From Nitrospiraceae bacterium (GTDB lineage: Bacteria; Nitrospirota; Nitrospiria; Nitrospirales; Nitrospiraceae): a stretch of 64,000 nucleotides of DNA. Below, piece by piece: positions 8,252 through 21,153 of the stretch. How positions within the stretch are numbered: position 1 is the stretch's first letter; each line of letters starts with the position of its first letter. Below the pieces are notes generated by a model that saw nothing but the letters and a program-made list of their open reading frames with translations, made no database searches and had not been told where the DNA came from. Made by a program: the position numbers and the translations under genes. The DNA lies in contig JAHBWI010000002.1 in assembly GCA_019637075.1 (NCBI GenBank), positions 434,001 through 498,000 of the forward strand, written 5' to 3'.

Positions 8252-9730
8252 ATGGCTTTGACACCAGCACAGCATTCCGAAGAATTCTTGCATTCCACCG
8301 ATAGCCGTCGGCGCTGCCTGGCAATCCGTGACGCCTTGATCCGAGCGGGGCTCTACCCTCCCGGGACCGGTGCGACTGCGCCTACCGGTGGTCCAGCCGG
8401 CTTCCGAATCGCGCCCGACCCCTTTTCCCTCTCCGCCTCGGACTTTACGTTTCTTCAAAACCTCGGGCCGCTGCTCCTCTCATTCTATCGGGCGTTGAAC
8501 CGGCTCTATGTCGACAGCACACGCAACCTGCAACCGAGCTGGGTCGCCTCCTACCTCGACCAGGGCAAACCGGAATCGTTGATCGCCTACAGCCGCATGA
8601 ATCGCTTCCGTAACCACCTCCCGGCCGTCATCCGGCCCGACATCATTCCCACCGCCGACGGAATGGTCATCACAGAACTCGATTCCGTCCCAGGCGGCAT
8701 CGGGCTCACGGCCTGCCTCACGGCAGCCTATGATGAGCAGCGCGGCAAGACGGCATCGGCAACCCGTTCGACGAATCCGGCCGGCCCAGACGGGATGATC
8801 CAACAGTTCGCCGCCATGCTCCGCTCGCAGCAAGCCGACCACCCAGGCTGTATCGCCATCGTCGTGTCCGAAGAGGCGAAGGACTATCGGCCGGAGATGC
8901 AGTGGATGGCGGAACAGCTCCGCGAGATTGGGTGCGAGGCGTACTGCGCCGAGCCGAAGGCGGTGCGGTTTTCGGAGGCGGGCTTATCGCTTGAAAGGCC
9001 AGCCGGTGTGCGCCCGATCGGGCTGATCTACCGGTTCTACGAGCTGTTCGATTTGAAAAATATCCCGAAGTCCGAACTGACGATGTACGCCGTCAAGAAA
9101 GACACGGTTGCCGTCACGCCGCCCTACAAACCGGCCCTGGAGGAAAAGCTGGCCTTCGGGCTGTTCCACCATCCTGAGCTCGAACCATTCTGGAAGAAGA
9201 CCTTGGATCAGGATGCCTATACGACCCTGCATCGACTATTGCCCCGCACATGGATCCTTGATCCGCGTCCGGTGCCCCCGTCGGCCGTGATCCCGCACCT
9301 CCAGATGGGAGGCCAAGCCATTTCGGATTTCCGCCGATTGGCCGATGGAACACAGAAGGAGCGGCACCTCGTGATCAAGCCGTCCGGCTTCTCCGAGCTG
9401 GCCTGGGGCAGCCGGGGGGTCTCGATCGGCCACGATCTCCCTCAGTCGGAATGGGCGCAGGCGCTGGACCAGGCGCTGGAGCGTTTCTCGACGACCCCCT
9501 CCGTGCTGCAAGAGTTTCACAAAGGCCGGCAGTTCGAATGCCGATACTACGACGAGGCGACCGATCAGATCGCTTCGATGTCGGCGCGAGCGCGCCTCTC
9601 GCCGTATTATTTCGTGGTCGGAGAAAAGGTCGAGCTCGGGGGCATGCTGGCTACCCTGTGCTCTGCCGAAAAGAAGATCATTCACGGCATGGTCGACGCA
9701 ATCATGGCGCCCTGCGCCCTTGAGGTCTAG
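8252..9730 (+). CDS. ATP-grasp-like protein, possible carboxylate-amine ligase
   Basis: 492 residues, no signal peptide or membrane segment. The C-terminal third has features of ATP-grasp enzymes: a VIKPSGFSELAWGSRG stretch like the phosphate-binding Lys/Gly loop, followed by PSVLQEFHKGR, where a Gln/Glu pair could bind adenine. An earlier LDSVPGGIGLT motif and a middle region with a YRFYELFD motif recall circularly permuted ATP-grasp proteins and glutathionylspermidine synthase. If correct it would join an amine to a carboxylate using ATP. ATG 8252 is preceded by GAGGG; a reading frame open farther upstream overlaps the diguanylate cyclase and is unlikely. It heads a run with glutaredoxin and lysine 2,3-aminomutase. 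Confidence 0.6.
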   Translation: MALTPAQHSEEFLHSTDSRRRCLAIRDALIRAGLYPPGTGATAPTGGPAGFRIAPDPFSLSASDFTFLQNLGPLLLSFYRALNRLYVDSTRNLQPSWVASYLDQGKPESLIAYSRMNRFRNHLPAVIRPDIIPTADGMVITELDSVPGGIGLTACLTAAYDEQRGKTASATRSTNPAGPDGMIQQFAAMLRSQQADHPGCIAIVVSEEAKDYRPEMQWMAEQLREIGCEAYCAEPKAVRFSEAGLSLERPAGVRPIGLIYRFYELFDLKNIPKSELTMYAVKKDTVAVTPPYKPALEEKLAFGLFHHPELEPFWKKTLDQDAYTTLHRLLPRTWILDPRPVPPSAVIPHLQMGGQAISDFRRLADGTQKERHLVIKPSGFSELAWGSRGVSIGHDLPQSEWAQALDQALERFSTTPSVLQEFHKGRQFECRYYDEATDQIASMSARARLSPYYFVVGEKVELGGMLATLCSAEKKIIHGMVDAIMAPCALEV

Positions 9731-9787
9731 CCCTTACGCGATGACCCGACCTTTGCCTTTTTCGCCAGTTCTTGATACGTGGTACTC

Positions 9788-10033
9788 ATGGCTTTGACGC
9801 TCTATCATGTCGAATGGTGCCCCGATTGTGCCGTCGTGCGCGATCGGCTCGAAGAATTGAACCTCACCTATGAAGGCATCATCGTGCCGGACTTCCGTCC
9901 CATGCGGAAACTGGTGCACGAAGTTTCCGGCCAATACTATGTGCCCGTGCTGAAAGACGGCGATACGATCCTGACGGAAACCCACGACATTCTTGCCCAC
10001 CTGGATACCCACTACGCCAAGGCAGACTCGTGA
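9788..10033 (+). CDS. Glutaredoxin-like thioredoxin-fold protein
   Basis: 81 residues, a single thioredoxin fold with a WCPDC active site close to the N-terminus and a YVPVLKDG segment holding the cis-Pro. The pattern fits glutaredoxins and the N-terminal domain of glutathione S-transferases; with both cysteines present a dithiol redox role is likely. A GTG at 9779 is an alternative start. It sits between the ATP-grasp-like gene and kamA, about 50 and 110 bases away, so probably in the same unit. Confidence 0.75.
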   Translation: MALTLYHVEWCPDCAVVRDRLEELNLTYEGIIVPDFRPMRKLVHEVSGQYYVPVLKDGDTILTETHDILAHLDTHYAKADS

Positions 10034-10146
10034 CCACGGGATCCCGGACCGACAACTGGACGAAGAACAACGGAACAATCCTTCCGTTCGGCAACCGAGG
10101 CCTCGCGTGTCCGGCTTGAGGATTCCGTAAGCGAAAGGACATCGAC

Positions 10147-11322
10147 GTGGACGACTGGAAACGCATTCTGGCTGACAGCGTCGTCAAGCCGAAGGACTTG
10201 GCGGAACGGCTCGGTGTGGATCCGAAGGAAGTCGAAGACATCGTCGGCGACTATCCCATGCGCATTACGCCGACGGTGCTGGCGACCATCAAACACAAGG
10301 ACGACCCGATTTGGAAACAGGTCGTGCCGGACCGCGCCGAGATGGCCGATGCCGATGCGGAAGATGATCCTCTCGAAGAAGACCTGATGAGCCCGGTGCC
10401 GCACCTGGTCCACCGGTATCCGGATCGAGTGCTGCTGATGGTGACCAACCAATGTCCCATCTATTGCCGCTTCTGCACGAGAAAGCGCCTCGTCGGAAAG
10501 CCCGGTTTCCTTAAGAAGGGGGAATTGGACCGCGCCATCGCCTATCTCCGCGAACACCAGGAAGTTCGCGACGTCATTCTGTCGGGCGGCGATCCGCTGC
10601 TTCTGCCCGATCACCTCCTGGAGCGCATCCTCAAGGCCCTGCGCACGATTCCCCATTTGGAACTCATCCGCATCGGCTCACGGGTGCCAGGCACGCTCCC
10701 GGAACGAATCACGCCGAAACTGTGCGAGATCATCAAGAAATACCATCCCCTATATATGAACCTGCACTTCAACCATCCGGACGAGCTGACGCCGGACGTA
10801 AAGCGGGCGTGCGGCATGTTGGCCGACGCCGGGGTTCCCCTGGGGGCGCAAACTGTGCTACTCAAAGGAGTTAACGACGATCCCGACACTATGAAACGAC
10901 TCGTGCATCAACTGCTGTTGGCCCGCGTGAAACCCTATTACCTCTACCAAGCGGATCTCACCAAGGGAACGAATCACTTCCGAACCCCGGTCGAGAAGGG
11001 GCTCGAGATCATCAAGGCTCTTCAGGGGCATACCAGCGGGATGGGCGTGCCGCACTTCGTGATCGACGCTCCCGGCGGAGGCGGCAAGATTCCTTTGTTA
11101 CCGGCCGATTACCTGGTGCATGCGGACGAAGACAGCGTGGTACTCCGCAACTACGAAAACAAGACCTATCATTACCCTCAACCGAAGCAGGGAACCGGCC
11201 GTGAGTTGCCTATGGTGGGGGTCCGATCGAGCTACGACTCCCTGAGCGAAAACAGCTACCCAGACCGTGACGGGTATGCGGCCTGGGGAAACAGCTGCGG
11301 CGGGGATCCGGACGACTTGTGA
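10147..11322 (+). CDS. kamA: Lysine 2,3-aminomutase (radical SAM)
   Basis: 391 residues. The radical-SAM cluster motif is C103-x3-C107-x2-C110 (CPIYCRFC). The PLP lysine is in the PGGGGK loop (K314). Two aspartates that in clostridial lysine 2,3-aminomutase hold the substrate's side-chain amino group are kept, in QADLTKG and VIDAPGGGGK; glutamate 2,3-aminomutase and the EF-P enzyme EpmB differ there. I therefore infer conversion of L-lysine to L-beta-lysine. The start is a GTG with AAAGGA upstream. The stop overlaps the next start (GTGA), so the deaminase gene is translationally coupled. No acetyltransferase such as AblB, used for the osmolyte N-acetyl-beta-lysine, is adjacent. Confidence 0.85.
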   Translation: MDDWKRILADSVVKPKDLAERLGVDPKEVEDIVGDYPMRITPTVLATIKHKDDPIWKQVVPDRAEMADADAEDDPLEEDLMSPVPHLVHRYPDRVLLMVTNQCPIYCRFCTRKRLVGKPGFLKKGELDRAIAYLREHQEVRDVILSGGDPLLLPDHLLERILKALRTIPHLELIRIGSRVPGTLPERITPKLCEIIKKYHPLYMNLHFNHPDELTPDVKRACGMLADAGVPLGAQTVLLKGVNDDPDTMKRLVHQLLLARVKPYYLYQADLTKGTNHFRTPVEKGLEIIKALQGHTSGMGVPHFVIDAPGGGGKIPLLPADYLVHADEDSVVLRNYENKTYHYPQPKQGTGRELPMVGVRSSYDSLSENSYPDRDGYAAWGNSCGGDPDDL

Positions 11323-12470
11323 CACGCGCACGCAGCGGGCAGGGCATTCTGCCCTACCAGCAGATCACGCAATTGATCGCGAAGGGCGCCATCAAGGCCG
11401 ACCCTCCCGTCGAAAGTCGGCAAATCCAACCAGCCAGCCTCGACCTTCGGTTGGGTGCCAAAGCGTACCGGCTCATCAGCAGCTTTCTCCCGGAACTCTC
11501 CGCCATCAGCAGCCGCCTGAACGTGCTCGATTTCTACCAGTCCGACCTCGTCATGTACGAGATGGATCTGACGAAGGGGGCCATCCTCGAGAAGGGCCAC
11601 GTCTATTTGGTTCCGCTGCTTGAAACCTTGAACCTTCCCGCAACCGTTCGCGCACGGGCCAACCCCAAGAGCACGACGGGACGGCTGGATGTGTTTACCC
11701 GAATCGTGACCGACCTGACCTCGGGGTTCGACGAAATCCGTGCCGGCTATCGCGGCCCCCTCTTCTTGGAAGTGGTGCCCCGCTCGTTTGCCATCAAGGT
11801 GCAGACCGGCTATTGCCTGAACCAAATTCGATTCGTGCGCGGCGATGCCGCGGTGGCGGATGGCGCACTGCAAAAGGTCCATACCGGCGCGCCGTTGCTG
11901 TACCACAACAGCGCACCCCCGAGGCCTGTCGCGGCCAAGGACTTTCGAACCGACCGCGGACTGTTCCTCCGAATCAATTTAACCGGCGGGGACCGGAAGG
12001 ACGGGGTCATCGGTTATCGGGCCAAGAAAAACAGCCACGTCATCGACCTCTCCAAGATCGGCCATTACGCCGCACAGGATTTTTGGGAGCCCTTGAAGCC
12101 GCAGCGGCACGACAGCCTCTTGCTCGAACCGGAAGAGTTCTACATCCTGGCCTCGAAAGAGCGGATTCGCGTGCCGCCGGGATACGCCGCCGAAATGGTG
12201 GCCTACGAAGCCGCCTGCGGCGAACTGCGCACACACTATGCGGGCTTCTTCGATCCGGGCTTCGGCTACGGGGCCGGGGAACTGCGCGGCACCCAGGTCG
12301 TGCTCGAAGTTCGGCCGCACGATGTCCCCTTTCTCATTCACGACGGACAAACCTTCTTCAAAGTCGTGTATGATCGTATGCTGGATGTCCCGACGCAGGT
12401 CTATGGATCCGGCCTGGGCTCTTCATACCAACGGCAGGCCCTCACCCTAAGCAAACATTTCAAGGCATAA
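11319..12470 (+). CDS. dcd: Two-domain 2'-deoxycytidine 5'-triphosphate deaminase
   Basis: 383 residues, about twice the length of the ordinary Dcd, matching the two-domain family in which two dUTPase-like folds sit in tandem. The first half has RANPKSTTGRLDV and EIRAGYRGPLFLEV; the second has the more canonical AGFFDPGFG and GTQVVLEV with the likely catalytic Glu. It should deaminate dCTP to dUTP for thymidylate synthesis. The GTG start overlaps the kamA stop by 4 bases. Placement in this run may simply reflect coupling and need not mean a joint pathway. Confidence 0.85.
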   Translation: MTRARSGQGILPYQQITQLIAKGAIKADPPVESRQIQPASLDLRLGAKAYRLISSFLPELSAISSRLNVLDFYQSDLVMYEMDLTKGAILEKGHVYLVPLLETLNLPATVRARANPKSTTGRLDVFTRIVTDLTSGFDEIRAGYRGPLFLEVVPRSFAIKVQTGYCLNQIRFVRGDAAVADGALQKVHTGAPLLYHNSAPPRPVAAKDFRTDRGLFLRINLTGGDRKDGVIGYRAKKNSHVIDLSKIGHYAAQDFWEPLKPQRHDSLLLEPEEFYILASKERIRVPPGYAAEMVAYEAACGELRTHYAGFFDPGFGYGAGELRGTQVVLEVRPHDVPFLIHDGQTFFKVVYDRMLDVPTQVYGSGLGSSYQRQALTLSKHFKA

Positions 12471-12473
12471 GCA

Positions 12474-12887
12474 ATGGCTCCACCCAGCGATCTTCCCGAT
12501 CCGTCCACAAGACCGACGCCGCAGAACGATCCTCAAGATGCCGAAGAGGATGAGCGGCAGCGGGAGCGGCACTCCAACGTCATCGGCATGATGGTGGGCA
12601 CCGCCCTCATGTTCATCGGCTTTCTCAACATATTCCTGTCGATCAGCGGCGGGTTCGAAATCAACGTCGTACCGTTTCTGATTTACTTCGGCGGGCTCGC
12701 CATTTGGGCCAACTCCGTCGTGGAAAACCTCACCATGCGTTACTCCGTCATCGGCATTGCCCTGCTCCTTGGGCTGGCCTTGGCTCATTACGGCGAGGTG
12801 CTGTTTTGGCATAAGCAGGTGGTCTTCTGGGGTACGGTGGTCGTCGTCATGTACTTCATGTTCAACGAACCCAAGAAACCGGCCTGA
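12474..12887 (+). CDS. Small integral membrane protein, function unknown
   Basis: 137 residues. A hydrophilic, Pro/Asp/Glu-rich head (1-33) precedes four hydrophobic segments at about 36-58, 62-80, 88-104 and 110-128, so it should be an inner-membrane protein with a cytoplasmic or periplasmic tail. It begins 3 bases after the dCTP deaminase stop and is followed 29 bases later by a glycosyltransferase, so it is clearly in the same transcription unit. I do not recognise the family. Confidence 0.7.
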   Translation: MAPPSDLPDPSTRPTPQNDPQDAEEDERQRERHSNVIGMMVGTALMFIGFLNIFLSISGGFEINVVPFLIYFGGLAIWANSVVENLTMRYSVIGIALLLGLALAHYGEVLFWHKQVVFWGTVVVVMYFMFNEPKKPA

Positions 12888-15152: not shown

Positions 15153-15479
15153 TCAGCTGGCGCCGAACGCCTTTTTCAGCAACGGCTCCACTTCTCCTTT
15201 GGCTTCCATCGGATCCAAGATGTCCGTATCGCCGTAAAATTGCCCGTCGATGAAGACCTTCGGCAGGGTGGGCCAATTCGTCATCTTTGTCAGGGCCTCC
15301 CGCTTCGCCGGCTGCGAGAGGACGTCGATCACCTCATACGGATACCCGTATTTATTGAAAAACTGCATCGTCTCACGGGTAAAGCCGCACATGGGCATGG
15401 TCTTGGTGCCCTTCCCGTAGATGAGGATTTTATGGGCTTTCACTTCCTTGTGGATTTCCTCTTCGATAGGATCCGCCAT
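15153..15479 (-). CDS. grxD: Grx4-family monothiol glutaredoxin
   Basis: 108 residues. The single active-site Cys is in MCGFT, a Thr variant of the standard CGFS motif; the GSH-binding WPTLPKVFIDG and GDTDIL segments are intact. Family members bind a [2Fe-2S] cluster through the Cys and glutathione and pass it on, often together with BolA. The bolA-like gene lies 14 bases upstream on the same strand, supporting a Grx4-BolA iron-sulfur complex. Confidence 0.92.
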   Translation of the reverse strand: MADPIEEEIHKEVKAHKILIYGKGTKTMPMCGFTRETMQFFNKYGYPYEVIDVLSQPAKREALTKMTNWPTLPKVFIDGQFYGDTDILDPMEAKGEVEPLLKKAFGAS

Positions 15480-15493
15480 GGCATCCTCCTGCG

Positions 15494-15733
15494 TTATGCT
15501 TCGTCCTTTGTCTTGGCCGTTATCTCCAGCGCATGAATACGCCCATCCTTCATGGGCGCTGCCAGGGACTGATAGACCAACCGATGCCGGTCGAGCAAAT
15601 TCATCCCCTTGAAGCGGTCCGAGACGATGCGGACGATCAAATGGTCTTGCGTGCCTGTCTTATCGATCACCGTCACAGCGGCATCCGGCAAGGTTTCACG
15701 GACGATACTCGTGACTGATTCCGCACTAATCAT
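15494..15733 (-). CDS. BolA/IbaG family protein
   Basis: 79 residues, the usual length. The fold is indicated by an N-terminal helix ISAESVTSIVRETLP, the DHLIVRIVSDRFKGMNLLDRHRLVY core, and IHALEITAKT at the end; the conserved His that helps bind the shared [2Fe-2S] cluster is in LLDRHR. ATG 15733 is chosen since upstream sequence is not BolA-like. It is immediately followed by grx4, the standard partner in iron-sulfur trafficking and repair. Confidence 0.9.
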   Translation of the reverse strand: MISAESVTSIVRETLPDAAVTVIDKTGTQDHLIVRIVSDRFKGMNLLDRHRLVYQSLAAPMKDGRIHALEITAKTKDEA

Positions 15734-15861
15734 AATCGTGAAGCTACCATAGCGCAGGAAAGGCCCGTGAGGCAATTCCCCCCGGACAGGCTCATGGAAG
15801 GCATGGCGAATCCTGGCCGGGGTCTGGCATTTCAAATGTTCCCCTCGTTAGACTACGTGCT

Positions 15862-15882
15862 CCGCCCATCACGCTTGGGCGG
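15862..15882 (+). promoter_or_regulatory. 5' leader stem-loop
   Basis: CCGCCCA (15862-15868) pairs perfectly with TGGGCGG (15876-15882) across a 7-base loop, 24 bases before the ATG at 15906 and ahead of its strong ribosome site. Such leader hairpins can stabilise mRNA. Confidence 0.4.
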
Positions 15883-15905
15883 TCGAAACACCAAAGGAGG
15901 ATCTA

Positions 15906-16268
15906 ATGTCTGCTGAACCATCGAACCGCATGACGAACTTTGCCCGAACGACCATCATCGCCCTAAGCCTTATCCTTGGCATCGAATGCGCCACCTCTGT
16001 ACGCCCCGCCTCTGCAGCCGGGCCTGGCACGGAAGCCGTCCAAGGCCTCGCCAGTTACTTCCTGACCATGCCCTACGGCGGCATCAAGATGGCCGTGGCC
16101 GTGATGGGAGCCCTTGCGGGGGGAATGGGGTTTATCTTCACTGGTGGCGATAAGGTCACCGCCGGAAAAATCTGGGGCCCGACTCTCGGCGGGGAATATG
16201 TCATCACCCCGGAGCACATTCGAGGTGATAAGGACCTGCACTTCTTCGGGAACGCCCCAACCAAGTAA
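15906..16268 (+). CDS. Small exported or membrane protein, function unknown
   Basis: 120 residues. A hydrophobic N-terminus (about 15-38) ending in an Ala-rich SAAG site is probably a cleaved signal peptide; a second hydrophobic segment (about 58-80, with GALAGGMGFIF) probably anchors it. The tail is Gly-rich with a YVITPEHIRGDKDLHFFG stretch. An AAAGGAGG ribosome site lies 5 bases before the ATG, a stem-loop lies in the leader and a 14-bp hairpin after the stop, so this is likely an abundant, independently made transcript. I do not recognise the family. The signalling genes downstream begin 265 bases later. Confidence 0.75.
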   Translation: MSAEPSNRMTNFARTTIIALSLILGIECATSVRPASAAGPGTEAVQGLASYFLTMPYGGIKMAVAVMGALAGGMGFIFTGGDKVTAGKIWGPTLGGEYVITPEHIRGDKDLHFFGNAPTK

Positions 16269-16284
16269 CCGACTTCTCTCGATT

Positions 16285-16316
16285 CGGCAGGGGATCTGCT
16301 CACAGATCCCCTGCCG
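16285..16316 (+). terminator. Perfect 14-bp hairpin, probable transcription terminator
   Basis: CGGCAGGGGATCTG (16285-16298) and CAGATCCCCTGCCG (16303-16316) form a perfect stem with a 4-base loop, 16 bases after the stop of the small exported protein. It has no U-tract, so termination might be partial, or the hairpin might protect the mRNA 3' end. Confidence 0.65.
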
Positions 16317-16456
16317 CAGGCTGCCTCCCTTTCCCAGTCTCTCGTGGTGGTGGAATTCACGCGCTGGTGGTGGTTCTCAACCACCGTTCGATGCGGCACG
16401 CATAGCCTGCTCGACCAAACCGATTGAAATCCTGTCGCTTCCCCAGGCCGCCTGCA

Positions 16457-16471
16457 TGGCATGCCTGTTGC
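16457..16471 (+). promoter_or_regulatory. Candidate sigma-54 promoter before the receiver gene
   Basis: TGGCATGCCTGTTGC has the GG-N10-GC spacing of -24/-12 promoters. It lies 62 bases ahead of the ATG at 16534. A short hairpin (GGTGGTT-CTC-AACCACC, 16369-16385) lies upstream. Single-site matches occur by chance in GC-rich DNA. Confidence 0.3.
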
Positions 16472-16533
16472 CATTCTCTTTGGGCAAGAAGACATCGCCA
16501 GTCGCGGCGGTCGACAACCACAAGGAGGGCACC

Positions 16534-16965
16534 ATGGAGTTCAAATCCGGATTCTTCCTGAGCGAGTCGGAATGCAACGGTCGAGTGCTCGTCGTGGACG
16601 ATGAACCAGATATCCGCAAGGTCGTGAAGATGACCCTGACCAAGGCCGGTTACGAAGTGCTCGAGGCAGAGAACGGAGAAAAGGCCATCGAGGCCATCAA
16701 CTCCGGTGAAAACCGCCTCCTGCTCGACGTCGTGGTGTGCGACATCCGAATGCCCAAGATCAACGGCGTGGAAGCCATCGCCTACTTCCAGAAAGAATGG
16801 CCCCGCGTACCGATCATCGTCTTGACGGGCTTCCCCGACACCGACATGGCCACGACCTTTTTGCGGAGCGGCGTCGTAGACTACTTGGTGAAGCCTGTGG
16901 AAGGTGACAAGCTCCGGTCGGCCGTGGCTCGCGCCATGGAACAGCGGGAGTTGGCCCGCCTCTGA
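16534..16965 (+). CDS. Stand-alone CheY-like receiver
   Basis: 143 residues: a short head, then one receiver domain (about 16-138) with the acidic pair in VVDDEPD, the phosphoacceptor Asp in VVCDIRMPK, the Thr switch in VLTGF and Lys in LVKPVEG. There is no output domain, so it would act by protein contact or as a phosphate relay. AAGGAGGG stands 6 bases before the ATG, which fixes the start; the frame is open farther upstream without receiver sequence. It is followed 89 bases later by the Rossmann-fold histidine kinase and probably belongs to its operon. Confidence 0.92.
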   Translation: MEFKSGFFLSESECNGRVLVVDDEPDIRKVVKMTLTKAGYEVLEAENGEKAIEAINSGENRLLLDVVVCDIRMPKINGVEAIAYFQKEWPRVPIIVLTGFPDTDMATTFLRSGVVDYLVKPVEGDKLRSAVARAMEQRELARL

Positions 16966-17054
16966 TCGCGAGAAGCATCCGACCCTTCGACTCCGATTCG
17001 GGAAAGCACAGCCGCTTTCCCGGACGGAGAAGAGGGAGGAGACAGGATACGCAG

Positions 17055-18104
17055 ATGGAACGAAAGCCGACGCATATCGCCATCCTGGGAGCGGGACGAG
17101 GCGGCACGGTCCTGCTCGAGCTGTTTCATCAGATGCCGGACGTCACGATCGTCGGCATCGCCGACAAAGATCCGGCCGCACCGGGGCTGAAACGGGCAAG
17201 AGAGCTGAATGTCCCGGTCGCCGACCACGTACCCGATCTTATCCGCCATGCGGGGGCCAGCCTGATCGTCGATGTGACGGGCGATCCGAACATGGCGCAG
17301 ACGGTCGGGGCCAACAAACGACCCGAGGCTGAAGTCCTCAGCGGCGCGACCGCACGGCTGCTGTGGACACTCGTGCAGCACGAGCGGAAACTGGAAGCGG
17401 AACTCTTGCACGCGGAAAAGCTCGCGGGGCTCGGCTCCTTCGCCGCCGGCATCGCCCATGACATCAACAACCCCCTGCAGCTGATCTTGGGGTTGGCGGA
17501 GAATCTGACCGAAGAAGGTGATCTCAAGGCCGTCCACGAACAGGCCCATGACATCGTCAATGCCGTCAAACGCACCAGCGCCATTTGTCGTGACCTGACT
17601 CGCTACGCGCGGCGAGACGGCGGCGACGGAGACATGCTGGTCGCGCTCAACACCAAGCTGGAGGAAGCGCTCCGAATCGCCCGGTATGCCGTCACCCTGC
17701 AGGACATTACGGTCGTGAGGGACTATGCCGATCAGGCTCAGGTCCGCGGAAATCCCGATGAACTCCTGCATGTGTTCGTGAACCTCATCACGAACGCGGT
17801 CCATGCCATGAGTGATCGAGGGACGCTGACCTTGAGCACATCGGTGAACGAGGATGAGTCGGTCGCGGTGAGCGTGACCGACACCGGCTGCGGCATTCCC
17901 GCTGAAGCGCTCCCCAAGATCTTCGAGCCGCTCTTCACGACGAAGCCGCCGGGGAAAGGCACGGGGCTGGGGCTTTATAATGTCATGTCGGTCATTTCCA
18001 AGATGCAGGGTCATATCTGCGTCAACAGCACGGTCGGCCAGGGATCGACATTCCGGATCGAGTTTCCCGTGGTGAGTCAACCGATTGAATATGTGCCCAT
18101 ATGA
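17055..18104 (+). CDS. Soluble histidine kinase with N-terminal Rossmann nucleotide-binding domain
   Basis: 349 residues, no membrane segments. Residues 6-105 look like a NAD(P)-binding Rossmann fold: strand HIAILGAGRGG with GxGxxG at 12-17, an acidic residue at the end of the second strand (GIADKD), and a later IVDVTGD strand, similar to homoserine-dehydrogenase-type domains. A short helix leads to HisKA with His135 in AGIAHDINNP and an ATPase domain with DTGCGIP and GKGTGLGL. The kinase may therefore read NAD(H) or another nucleotide. The stop overlaps the start of the next kinase by 4 bases (ATGA). No sensor domain other than the Rossmann part is present. Confidence 0.85.
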   Translation: MERKPTHIAILGAGRGGTVLLELFHQMPDVTIVGIADKDPAAPGLKRARELNVPVADHVPDLIRHAGASLIVDVTGDPNMAQTVGANKRPEAEVLSGATARLLWTLVQHERKLEAELLHAEKLAGLGSFAAGIAHDINNPLQLILGLAENLTEEGDLKAVHEQAHDIVNAVKRTSAICRDLTRYARRDGGDGDMLVALNTKLEEALRIARYAVTLQDITVVRDYADQAQVRGNPDELLHVFVNLITNAVHAMSDRGTLTLSTSVNEDESVAVSVTDTGCGIPAEALPKIFEPLFTTKPPGKGTGLGLYNVMSVISKMQGHICVNSTVGQGSTFRIEFPVVSQPIEYVPI

Positions 18105-20578
18105 CGACTGAAGGCTCCGCGCTCGGCAAGGCACTCGGCTGGGGGCTCAAACGGAAGCTGATCGTTTCGATGCTTCTGGTGGGCGTGGTACCTCTCCTGC
18201 TTGGACTGGGCCTGGCATTTCTTCAAGGCTCGAAGGAAATTCACGAAGTCAGCGGAGAAAGCTTTAAGGCCCTGGCCACCGAAGCGGCCAGGAAGTTGGA
18301 TCTGTTGGTCGCCGAAGAAGTGTCGCGCACATCGCGCATCGCAATCAACCCCATCATCATCCGCGAACTGGAAAAACGCCGAGATCACCTGCAAACCGGC
18401 GAGCCGGCCGCACTCAAGAAATCGTTGGAGGATGAACGGACGCGATGGGACAACGGGGATCCGGCCGGCACCAAGGCCATTACGGGAAACTCGGTTGCGC
18501 TCCTGCTCCGCGAGCACTACGCGGGGTCGCACAACGAACCGGACCAACTGCTTCCACAAGTCGTCCGGGCCGCCACCAAGATGCTCTTCGTCACGGATAT
18601 GCAGGGGCATTTGGTCGCAGCCTTGACCACCAGGCCGGCCTTCAACAGCTCCGACCGGATCTGGTGGAAAGGCGCCTACAACAAGGGCGTCGGACAACTC
18701 TTCATTGAGGATGTGGCCTTCGACAAGGCGGCCGACTCCTATGTCTTCACCATTTCGATTCCCGTCATGGACAGCCTGCGGTATGAGGTCGTCGGCGTGA
18801 TCCATCGGGTCATCGATGCGAAAGAGTTTTTCTCTCCCTCGACCCATCCGATCCGATTCGGGAAAACCGGCCACGTCATGCTCATCGATAGCCGCGGCGT
18901 CGTCATGAGTTGTCCCATCCTCCCGACCGGTGTCCGGTTGTCGGATCCTTCGTTGATTCCGCTGATCACTCCCCTTCAGCCAGGTTGGGTCAGCGCCGCC
19001 AGTGACGGACATGGGGGACATGGCACTGCCATCATCGGATTCGCTCCGCTGCCGGAAACGAGCCGTGCTACGAATGGATCGCTGGAACAGGGAGGGTGGC
19101 ACACGTTCGTCTGGCAGTCATCCGCCGAACTGTTCGCTCCCATCGAACACTTATTGGAATGGATGTCGATCCTTGCATTGGTTGCAGTGGGCTTGCTGGC
19201 CACGTTGGGCTACTTCGCCGCCAGCCGCATCGTGACTCCGGTTCGCAAACTGCAGGAGGCAGCGAGACTGGTTGGGCGGGGCGAACTGCGCGAACCGATT
19301 CGAATCGAAACCGGCGACGAGCTGCAGGAACTCGCCGTCGAGTTCAACCGGATGAATACACAGTTGGAAGCCGCCTTTGCCGGCCTGGCCACGCAGGTCG
19401 AAGAAAAAACCCAAGAGGTGCAGTACCTGCAAAAGGCGACCGACCAAGTGCTCGATGCGGTTCCGACGCCGATCGTGCTGATCGACCAACATCAGGACAT
19501 CCAGTATATGAACCAGGCATCCCGCGAGCTGTTGGGAACGGACGGCCAGGGCAAGACCGGCTCGTCGCTTTTTGAGCTCCTGAATCTGAGCCACGCGCAG
19601 CAGGAGCACTTGGAACACGCACTCGATCTCGAGACCGGTGCCTCGCTCCGAGGCCCCGCTCGCGCGGAGGACGATCTGATCAAAGAAGCCAGGGACCCGC
19701 TCGCTCCCTTGCTGAAACAACCGACCCACGATGCCCGACGCGAATTGACGATCGAGGGACGCCTCTACCGCTACGAATGGTTTTCGCTGCAAGCCCGAAG
19801 CGGCGAAGGCCGTCGCTTCGGACTCGTACTCCGCGACACCACCGACGAGAGCCGGCTTCAGGACCAGCTGGTCCAGGCGGAGAAGTCCGGCAGCCTGGGC
19901 GTGCTGACGGCAGGCATCGGTCATGAACTGAACAATCCGCTGTTCGGCATTCTCGGCCTGGGCGAAGCCATCCAGGAAGAATCGGACCTGACGAGAGCCA
20001 AAGCCTATGCGCGCGATATCCTGGAACATGGACGCCGAATGGCAGCGATCATCCGCGACTTCACCGGCGTCGCCACCAGGGAATCCAAAGATCAACGCGT
20101 CCCCGTCGACGTAAACGCACAACTCGATCAGGCTCTGGCCATCGCGCAAACCTCCCAGGACTGCCTGGGGCTCAACGTGAGAAAGCACTACGTCGCGCTG
20201 CCGCAGGTGAGCGCGTTGCCGGACCAACTCCGATTGGTCTTCATCAACGTGATCACGAATGCCTTACAGGCCATGCACAGCAAAGGGGATCTCTGGGTCA
20301 GTACGGCGGAACAGCCGGGAGCGGTAACGATCACGATCCGCGACAATGGTCCGGGCATCGCCAAGCAACATCTCGGCAAAGTCTTCGATCCGTTCTTCAC
20401 CACGAAGGGGCAGGGTGAAGGCTCGGGTCTGGGCCTTACGGTCGCGCAGCGATTGATCAAAAAATTCGGCGGGGACATCCGCATCGAGAGCATCGAAGGC
20501 CAGGGCACCACCTGCACGATCACATTGCCGACCGTGGAGTCCGGGGTGCGAAAGGAGGAGTCATGCGCAACCTCATGA
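18101..20578 (+). CDS. Membrane sensor histidine kinase (periplasmic Cache-like domain-HAMP-PAS)
   Basis: 825 residues. Membrane segments near 18-43 and 357-378 flank a ~310-residue periplasmic domain of Cache type; HAMP follows (about 378-430), then a coiled coil, a PAS domain (about 445-590), HisKA with His608 in GIGHELNNP and an ATPase domain with DNGPGIA and GSGLGL. There is no receiver, so the stand-alone receiver at 16534 is a natural partner. The start overlaps the Rossmann kinase stop, and its end overlaps the haem protein start by 16 bases, indicating strict cotranslation. Confidence 0.92.
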   Translation: MTTEGSALGKALGWGLKRKLIVSMLLVGVVPLLLGLGLAFLQGSKEIHEVSGESFKALATEAARKLDLLVAEEVSRTSRIAINPIIIRELEKRRDHLQTGEPAALKKSLEDERTRWDNGDPAGTKAITGNSVALLLREHYAGSHNEPDQLLPQVVRAATKMLFVTDMQGHLVAALTTRPAFNSSDRIWWKGAYNKGVGQLFIEDVAFDKAADSYVFTISIPVMDSLRYEVVGVIHRVIDAKEFFSPSTHPIRFGKTGHVMLIDSRGVVMSCPILPTGVRLSDPSLIPLITPLQPGWVSAASDGHGGHGTAIIGFAPLPETSRATNGSLEQGGWHTFVWQSSAELFAPIEHLLEWMSILALVAVGLLATLGYFAASRIVTPVRKLQEAARLVGRGELREPIRIETGDELQELAVEFNRMNTQLEAAFAGLATQVEEKTQEVQYLQKATDQVLDAVPTPIVLIDQHQDIQYMNQASRELLGTDGQGKTGSSLFELLNLSHAQQEHLEHALDLETGASLRGPARAEDDLIKEARDPLAPLLKQPTHDARRELTIEGRLYRYEWFSLQARSGEGRRFGLVLRDTTDESRLQDQLVQAEKSGSLGVLTAGIGHELNNPLFGILGLGEAIQEESDLTRAKAYARDILEHGRRMAAIIRDFTGVATRESKDQRVPVDVNAQLDQALAIAQTSQDCLGLNVRKHYVALPQVSALPDQLRLVFINVITNALQAMHSKGDLWVSTAEQPGAVTITIRDNGPGIAKQHLGKVFDPFFTTKGQGEGSGLGLTVAQRLIKKFGGDIRIESIEGQGTTCTITLPTVESGVRKEESCATS

Positions 20579-21153
20579 GACCCTACCGGCTTTCGCTTTG
20601 GCTCGCGATGATGCTTGCCACGGGCATGGCCTACTCTCTCCAAGCCAAGGACCCGCCGCCGCCTTCCGGTATCGCGCCGGAGAAAGTCGCCGACTACGTG
20701 CATGCCGTACTTGAGGCCGATCGGACGATCTATACCAACCACGTCGTCAATCGCATGCAGGCCAAGGGGATTGTCTCCGCTGCCGAACATTGGGAGAACG
20801 AGAATGCCTTACCGCTCCCAGCCCAATTCCTCCAGCATTCCGGCAAGCTCGTAGCGGAATCCGGGCGCGGCATCCGTTACCGCCTGATCAGTCAGTGGCC
20901 GATCTACCAACGCAACGCTCCGGCGACGGATCTTGAACGCCGCGCGCTGGAGGGATTCGCGCAGAGTCCGGATCGCCCGCTGACCGGCATCGTCACCAGC
21001 GGACGAAAACAGTACTTTCAGGCCATCTACCCGGACCGCGCCATCTCAGCCGCCTGCGTGAACTGCCACAACAGTCATCCGCTGAGCCCCAAGCGTGACT
21101 TCGCCGTGAACGACATCATGGGCGGCATGGCGATTACGATTCCGCTGGATTGA
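20563..21153 (+). CDS. Tll0287-like (DUF3365) exported haem protein
   Basis: 196 residues. A signal peptide (about 8-28) is followed by the DUF3365/Tll0287-like domain, a PAS-like haem sensor fold. One c-type haem site is visible, C165-V-N-C168-H169, followed by NSHP. Family members bind a single haem c in the periplasm and are thought to sense redox state or small ligands such as NO. AAAGGAGGAG lies just before the ATG, inside the kinase gene, so strong independent initiation is likely. It could present the signal to the Cache domain of the kinase encoded just upstream. Confidence 0.85.
   Translation: MRNLMRPYRLSLWLAMMLATGMAYSLQAKDPPPPSGIAPEKVADYVHAVLEADRTIYTNHVVNRMQAKGIVSAAEHWENENALPLPAQFLQHSGKLVAESGRGIRYRLISQWPIYQRNAPATDLERRALEGFAQSPDRPLTGIVTSGRKQYFQAIYPDRAISAACVNCHNSHPLSPKRDFAVNDIMGGMAITIPLD

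Follow-up and report, generated by a model that had tools for sequence, protein, structure and literature searches.

Several described systems each share part of their design with the locus reported here. In KinA-E and Spo0F, multiple kinases feed one stand-alone receiver, and the split sensors LuxP-LuxQ and TorT-TorS pair a membrane kinase with a periplasmic protein. In Rex repressors, an NAD-type Rossmann domain has a regulatory role (PDB 5zz5, 3wg9). For haem-based sensing, a 2026 preprint gives the Tll0287-like or DUF3365 family the new name sCache_heme. Its authors report redox-protein behaviour for a stand-alone member ligated by Cys and His, and tight binding and slow release of nitric oxide (NO) for a membrane-associated member without the Cys (PMC12889525). 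These class functions rest on one tested protein per class, and operons are not mentioned (PMC12889525). The Geobacter proteins GSU0582 and GSU0935 have His/water or His/Met ligation that changes with redox state, and they bind NO and carbon monoxide (PMC8396549). Here we describe a cassette within a 64,000-nucleotide stretch (the window) of a Nitrospiraceae bacterium (assembly GCA_019637075.1, contig JAHBWI010000002.1, positions 434,001 to 498,000), in which consecutive genes encode a stand-alone receiver (REC), a soluble histidine kinase with an N-terminal Rossmann domain (RHK), a membrane histidine kinase (MHK) and a predicted exported mono-haem protein (HEM). Our comparative analysis suggests that the four products probably form a two-input, one-receiver two-component circuit with Rossmann and haem inputs.

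The cassette resembles KinA-E/Spo0F in combining kinases that have different inputs with one receiver that has no output domain, but differs in that all members are encoded in one conserved operon. As in LuxP-LuxQ and TorT-TorS, a separate exported protein is encoded beside a periplasmic-sensor kinase, and the MHK and HEM genes overlap across the order; the split sensors use a solute-binding protein, whereas the cassette uses a haem protein and adds a second, soluble kinase. RHK shares with Rex a regulatory NAD-type Rossmann domain, with detectable profile similarity, but where Rex has a DNA-binding domain RHK has a histidine kinase output, and in the fusions described below the output is a receiver. 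HEM has the CxxCH motif, export, Tll0287 fold and PF11845 domain of the sCache_heme family (PMC12889525; PDB 5b82, 3b42), yet departs from the described classes in being stand-alone while lying in a kinase operon and lacking an axial Cys. GSU0582 and GSU0935 likewise belong to this family and have a periplasmic c-type haem with no Cys ligand, but their haem domain is built covalently into the receptor (PMC8396549), whereas HEM is a separate protein. The initial annotation of this DNA knew of no described system with this set, and our paper search also found no description of the four-gene combination.

The initial annotation listed five plus-strand genes between positions 15862 and 21153, and all five open reading frames (ORFs) are intact; the overlaps that it gave for the last three, of 4 base pairs (bp) between RHK and MHK and 16 bp between MHK and HEM, are exact. 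Both kinases carry the histidine of HisKA and the boxes of HATPase_c. In RHK (HATPase_c 3.5e-26, HisKA 1.2e-10), His135 and N247 are conserved in the orthologue alignment, and in MHK (dCache_1 1.1e-12, HAMP, PAS_4, HisKA, HATPase_c) H608 and N720 are invariant among 30 aligned orthologues. REC retains the residues for phosphorylation, since the acidic pair D22/D23, the phospho-acceptor D70, T98 and K120 are invariant among 25 aligned orthologues. Pfam finds only a receiver in REC, with no output domain.

The gene-order search that the initial annotation had called for, an order confined to this genome being in its view a reason to drop the module, found that REC-RHK-MHK-HEM recurs across Nitrospirales in the same order and on the same strand, so the arrangement goes beyond chance. 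REC lies directly upstream of RHK in 39/40 RHK loci. Among the 37 of these loci with enough downstream sequence, MHK is next in 33 and HEM is also present in 31. The MHK and HEM genes overlap in most loci, by 1 to 52 bp, and cotranslation of the overlapping genes is plausible from the conservation of the overlaps. MHK orthologues, searched with the dCache region, occur in 79/119 genomes, and the cassette is present in the named genomes Candidatus Nitrospira defluvii (L086) and N. moscoviensis (L105). Within its own family the cassette is flanked by glutaredoxin, BolA, AI-2E permease, bactofilin and PBP genes, and in family f3 it persists although the flanking genes differ. The small exported protein encoded upstream, which the initial annotation had counted as a fifth member, does not share this conserved position. 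Its family is present in 53/61 relatives, mostly at unrelated places; adjacency to the cassette is limited to this genome and some members of the N. defluvii-type genus. With synteny restricted to close relatives, we rejected the five-gene module and judge the small protein to be a local paralogue outside the cassette.

Comparative evidence makes it very probable that REC serves both RHK and MHK, and so backs the single receiver that the initial annotation proposed. Across 119 genomes, homologues of REC (E<=1e-40, presence assigned by hand from listed identities) accompany both kinases in 69/69 genomes, RHK only in 10/10 and MHK only in 9/10, the one exception lying at a contig end; they occur in 4/30 genomes with neither kinase (Fisher p = 6e-21, which ignores shared ancestry). 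The gene pairings vary in a similar way. REC and RHK occur without MHK and HEM in L065 and L068-L070, REC and MHK occur without RHK and HEM in L302-L304 and L306, and L309, in genome G109, has REC-MHK-HEM with RHK missing. The kinases themselves are also alike. With about 36 kinases in the genome, the phosphotransfer domains closest to that of RHK belong to a kinase on contig C3 (C3:198831, 58 bits) and to MHK (51.5 bits; next 36), and those closest to that of MHK belong to the C3 kinase (C3:198837, 56 bits) and to RHK (49 bits; next 28). The three form a mutual-best group apart from some 33 other kinases. The C3 kinase, a REC-PAS-GAF-PAS protein of 916 amino acids, is encoded with a stand-alone receiver (G000:C3:197917-201101, or L286:5918-9102), and this receiver, apparently translationally coupled to the kinase by a gene overlap of 4 bp, is the closest to REC among 113 (133 bits, next 80). 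Co-duplication of a kinase and its receiver is the simplest reading of the C3 pair. The second kinase at L065 was considered as the C3 paralogue and rejected, as inspection showed a different dCache kinase.

A different wiring, with two independent pairs side by side in which RHK would signal to REC and MHK to a response regulator elsewhere, is improbable. REC does adjoin RHK with MHK more distal, and the resemblance of the phosphotransfer domains may be simple paralogy. However, lineages without RHK have REC directly beside MHK (the two genes overlap in L307), RHK and MHK resemble each other in their phosphotransfer domains and stand far from the other kinases, and REC presence tracks either kinase. 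Weighing against a shared receiver, the co-occurrence counts are uncorrected for phylogeny, the similarity of RHK and MHK could stem from recent duplication rather than from a common partner, and the RHK-MHK loci L053 and L243 have no adjoining REC or HEM. The genome of L053 (G114) has a REC of 69% identity elsewhere. At L053, the region upstream of the kinase pair (about 9369-12829) encodes a globin-like sensor and proteins resembling anti-sigma/STAS regulators, and the periplasmic domain of its MHK carries insertions.

The Rossmann domain that the initial annotation noted on the soluble kinase is confirmed, and is a recurrent input domain of signalling proteins. The AlphaFold model of RHK (mean predicted local distance difference test score, pLDDT, 84) alternates beta strands and alpha helices across residues 6-95, and a profile built on residues 1-162 matches acetaldehyde dehydrogenase (2.8e-5) and Rex, an NADH sensor (3.6e-4). 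As in Rex, there is a glycine-rich motif, here GxGxGG, and an acidic residue after beta 2, here D37; both are conserved, and the pair is present in 14/14 aligned diverse Rossmann domains with several output types. The winged-helix DNA-binding domain of Rex is absent from RHK by Pfam. The same domain lies in front of HisKA_3 in kinases encoded ahead of a NarL-type regulator (for example L131, L133 and L238), and is joined to a PAS-HisKA kinase in a Nitrospinota metagenome-assembled genome (MAG) and to two sigma-54 activators, one in a Methylomirabilota MAG. It also occurs with GerE-GAF-GGDEF and GAF-PAS-kinase-REC-GGDEF proteins. Because pairing with many output types is typical of sensory input domains, we regard the RHK Rossmann domain as an apparently unnamed one, with profile similarity to Rex and other NAD-binding proteins. 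The profile is matched by 198/246 sampled Nitrospirota genomes (E<=0.001), though ordinary Rossmann enzymes may account for many of the weaker matches. Paper searches turned up no kinase or receiver carrying this kind of domain. The HisKA_3-type Rossmann kinases (L129, L131, L133, L134, L238, L240, L241, L242, L245 and L246) mostly have a NarL-type regulator encoded behind them, are frequently located near glyA and nrdR, and appear to be a widespread Nitrospirota system.

On balance, we lean slightly towards a dinucleotide sensor for the Rossmann domain of RHK. Rossmann domains can instead bind other nucleotides or proteins, which tells against this assignment, and the domain might be a protein-docking or vestigial module that senses no nucleotide, with RHK regulated by partner proteins. 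The NAD-binding Pfam matches of RHK are indeed weak and sub-threshold, and the paralogue L063 has a degraded glycine motif. We nevertheless consider docking or decay unlikely in view of the profile matches to acetaldehyde dehydrogenase and Rex and the retention of the glycine motif and the beta 2 acidic residue across all 14 domains and several outputs.

In some lineages the same type of Rossmann domain is inserted inside a receiver. We found 17 such intact ORFs in 16 genomes (15 GTDB genomes and one MAG). Their N- and C-terminal receiver halves resemble the REC of the cassette, and the insertion follows the LTG of beta 4 and precedes the LVKP of beta 5, at the expected position of helix alpha 4. 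The six fusions that we aligned retain the phospho-acceptor Asp and the Lys, have Glu in place of the first acidic Asp, and lack two residues in the beta3-alpha3 loop. Given the Glu replacement and the missing loop residues, phosphorylation of these receivers may be altered or lost. Genome G109, in which the cassette has no RHK, encodes two of the fusions.

HEM is assigned to the sCache_heme family by sequence and by fold, in keeping with the exported mono-haem DUF3365 protein of the initial annotation. It scores 71 bits against PF11845 (cut-off 24.1; 1.9e-19), and its single haem c motif, CVNCH, is invariant in 29 orthologues. PDB sequence searches with HEM and one paralogue returned nothing useful, but a fold search with the AlphaFold model (pLDDT 83) succeeded, with Tll0287 itself (5b82, E 4.5e-5) as the best match, followed by 3b42. 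The two features that separate the described classes are both missing. None of the 29 orthologues has a mature Cys outside CxxCH that could act as the axial Cys of the redox class, and HEM ends after the haem domain, without the fusion to transmembrane or signalling modules of the NO-sensor class. By sequence, HEM thus appears to combine the architecture of the stand-alone redox class with the ligand set of the fused NO-sensor class and to fit neither. Since it fits neither and keeps its position directly behind MHK in every sampled cassette that has HEM, a role as a detached sensor of MHK suggests itself, and we think it probable that HEM acts as a sensor through MHK. For the haem signal itself we lean a little away from NO and towards redox state, with NO a serious possibility.

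Alternatively, HEM could be an ordinary periplasmic redox protein, placed in the operon for regulatory convenience, with the dCache domain of MHK sensing a small molecule directly. Redox roles have been assigned to stand-alone sCache_heme proteins (PMC12889525). Several observations also weigh against HEM as a sensor. The HEM paralogues of this genome lie beside non-signalling genes rather than kinases, a HEM-like gene at L127 follows a REC-Rossmann fusion with no adjoining MHK, and several REC-MHK loci, in several lineages, lack HEM. Because HEM is absent there and from L053 and L243, it is not essential for MHK. A purely redox role still seems somewhat unlikely to us, as HEM lacks the axial Cys typical of the tested redox-type stand-alone member, every HEM gene of the sampled cassettes lies behind MHK, and its start overlaps the MHK stop in the majority of loci across a broad phylogenetic span. 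The paralogues L208 and L209 (G000:C2 and C14) adjoin an aminotransferase-like gene, and a similar aminotransferase gene lies directly upstream of the cassette at L052.

For the two-input circuit, we infer the ligands, the contact between HEM and MHK, the phosphotransfer and the output as follows. The Rossmann domain of RHK would sense a signal in the cytoplasm, with NAD(H) or another such dinucleotide as the likeliest candidate. The dCache domain of MHK would sense one in the periplasm with the aid of HEM, a detached protein with an open haem that would be responsive to redox state or NO. RHK and MHK alike would phosphorylate or dephosphorylate REC, which would then bind or act on a target. 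More tentatively, NAD(H) and periplasmic redox or NO signals might converge on REC throughout the order, and some lineages might have merged the RHK branch into one protein, a receiver that holds the Rossmann domain in place of alpha 4 and is gated directly by a nucleotide; we hold this broader scheme to be possible but doubtful.

Nitrospira are major nitrite oxidisers whose redox and nitrogen-oxide sensing is largely unexplained, and the cassette offers a concrete, conserved candidate circuit. In addition, HEM puts to the test a recent division of the sCache_heme family into stand-alone redox proteins and fused sensors (PMC12889525), being a Cys-less, stand-alone member within a conserved kinase operon. 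The cassette also reveals an apparently unnamed Rossmann input domain common to histidine kinases, sigma-54 activators and one diguanylate cyclase, and a receiver type that this domain interrupts. The genome studied here (G000, 4.06 Mb) belongs to a Nitrospira relative and carries NxrB. A link between the cassette and nitrite oxidoreductase found no support, as NxrB presence does not track MHK (Fisher p = 0.43), with the caveat that NxrB exists in several copies and that draft assemblies often lose it. The N. moscoviensis regulatory cluster NITMOv2_3614-3631 (PMC12342949) was also considered; the cassette sits near 3.87 Mb in that 4.59-Mb genome (L105), a position distinct from that of the cluster by interpolation rather than by locus tags.

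Table 1. Genes and sequence features at the cassette (positions in the window) and related Rossmann-containing proteins at other loci (aa, amino acids).
Feature	Position	Strand	Basis or remark
REC, stand-alone receiver, 143 aa, no output domain	16534..16965	+	Response_reg 1.5e-29 (Pfam)
RHK, soluble kinase, 349 aa: N-terminal Rossmann (aa 1-105), HisKA, HATPase_c	17055..18104	+	Pfam
MHK, membrane kinase, 825 aa: dCache_1, HAMP, PAS, HisKA, HATPase_c	18101..20578	+	Pfam
HEM, predicted exported mono-haem Tll0287-like / sCache_heme protein, 196 aa	20563..21153	+	PF11845
Small exported protein, 120 aa, outside cassette	15906..16268	+	Local neighbour
Perfect 13-bp inverted repeat GGCAGGGGATCTG-CTCA-CAGATCCCCTGCC	16286..16315	.	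Sequence read directly
REC-Rossmann fusions	L126:6671-7465, L127:1705-2634, L190-L192, L194-L206		
Rossmann with PAS-HisKA, sigma-54, GerE-GAF-GGDEF and multi-domain kinase-GGDEF outputs, several phyla	L130:5925-7466, L132:6998-8440, L135:6713-8311, L136:4305-5771, L137:6684-10259		

The inverted repeat lies within the 265 bp that separate the small exported gene from REC, and may possibly mark a transcript boundary; no T-run follows it, and it was therefore not scored as a terminator. A promoter scan gave nothing exceeding shuffled sequences. Divergent from the cassette, positions 15153-15835 hold monothiol glutaredoxin and BolA genes that are kept across most of its family. In the draft genome at L048 (G010:C55), a stop splits MHK into two ORFs, reflecting either a genuine interruption or an error in the sequencing. 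Two contigs labelled as other bacteria, L127 (JAALKB010000128.1, Gammaproteobacteria) and L101 (CAADGK010000088.1, Nitrosospira), carry Nitrospirales-type cassette genes and are probably misbinned or mislabelled.

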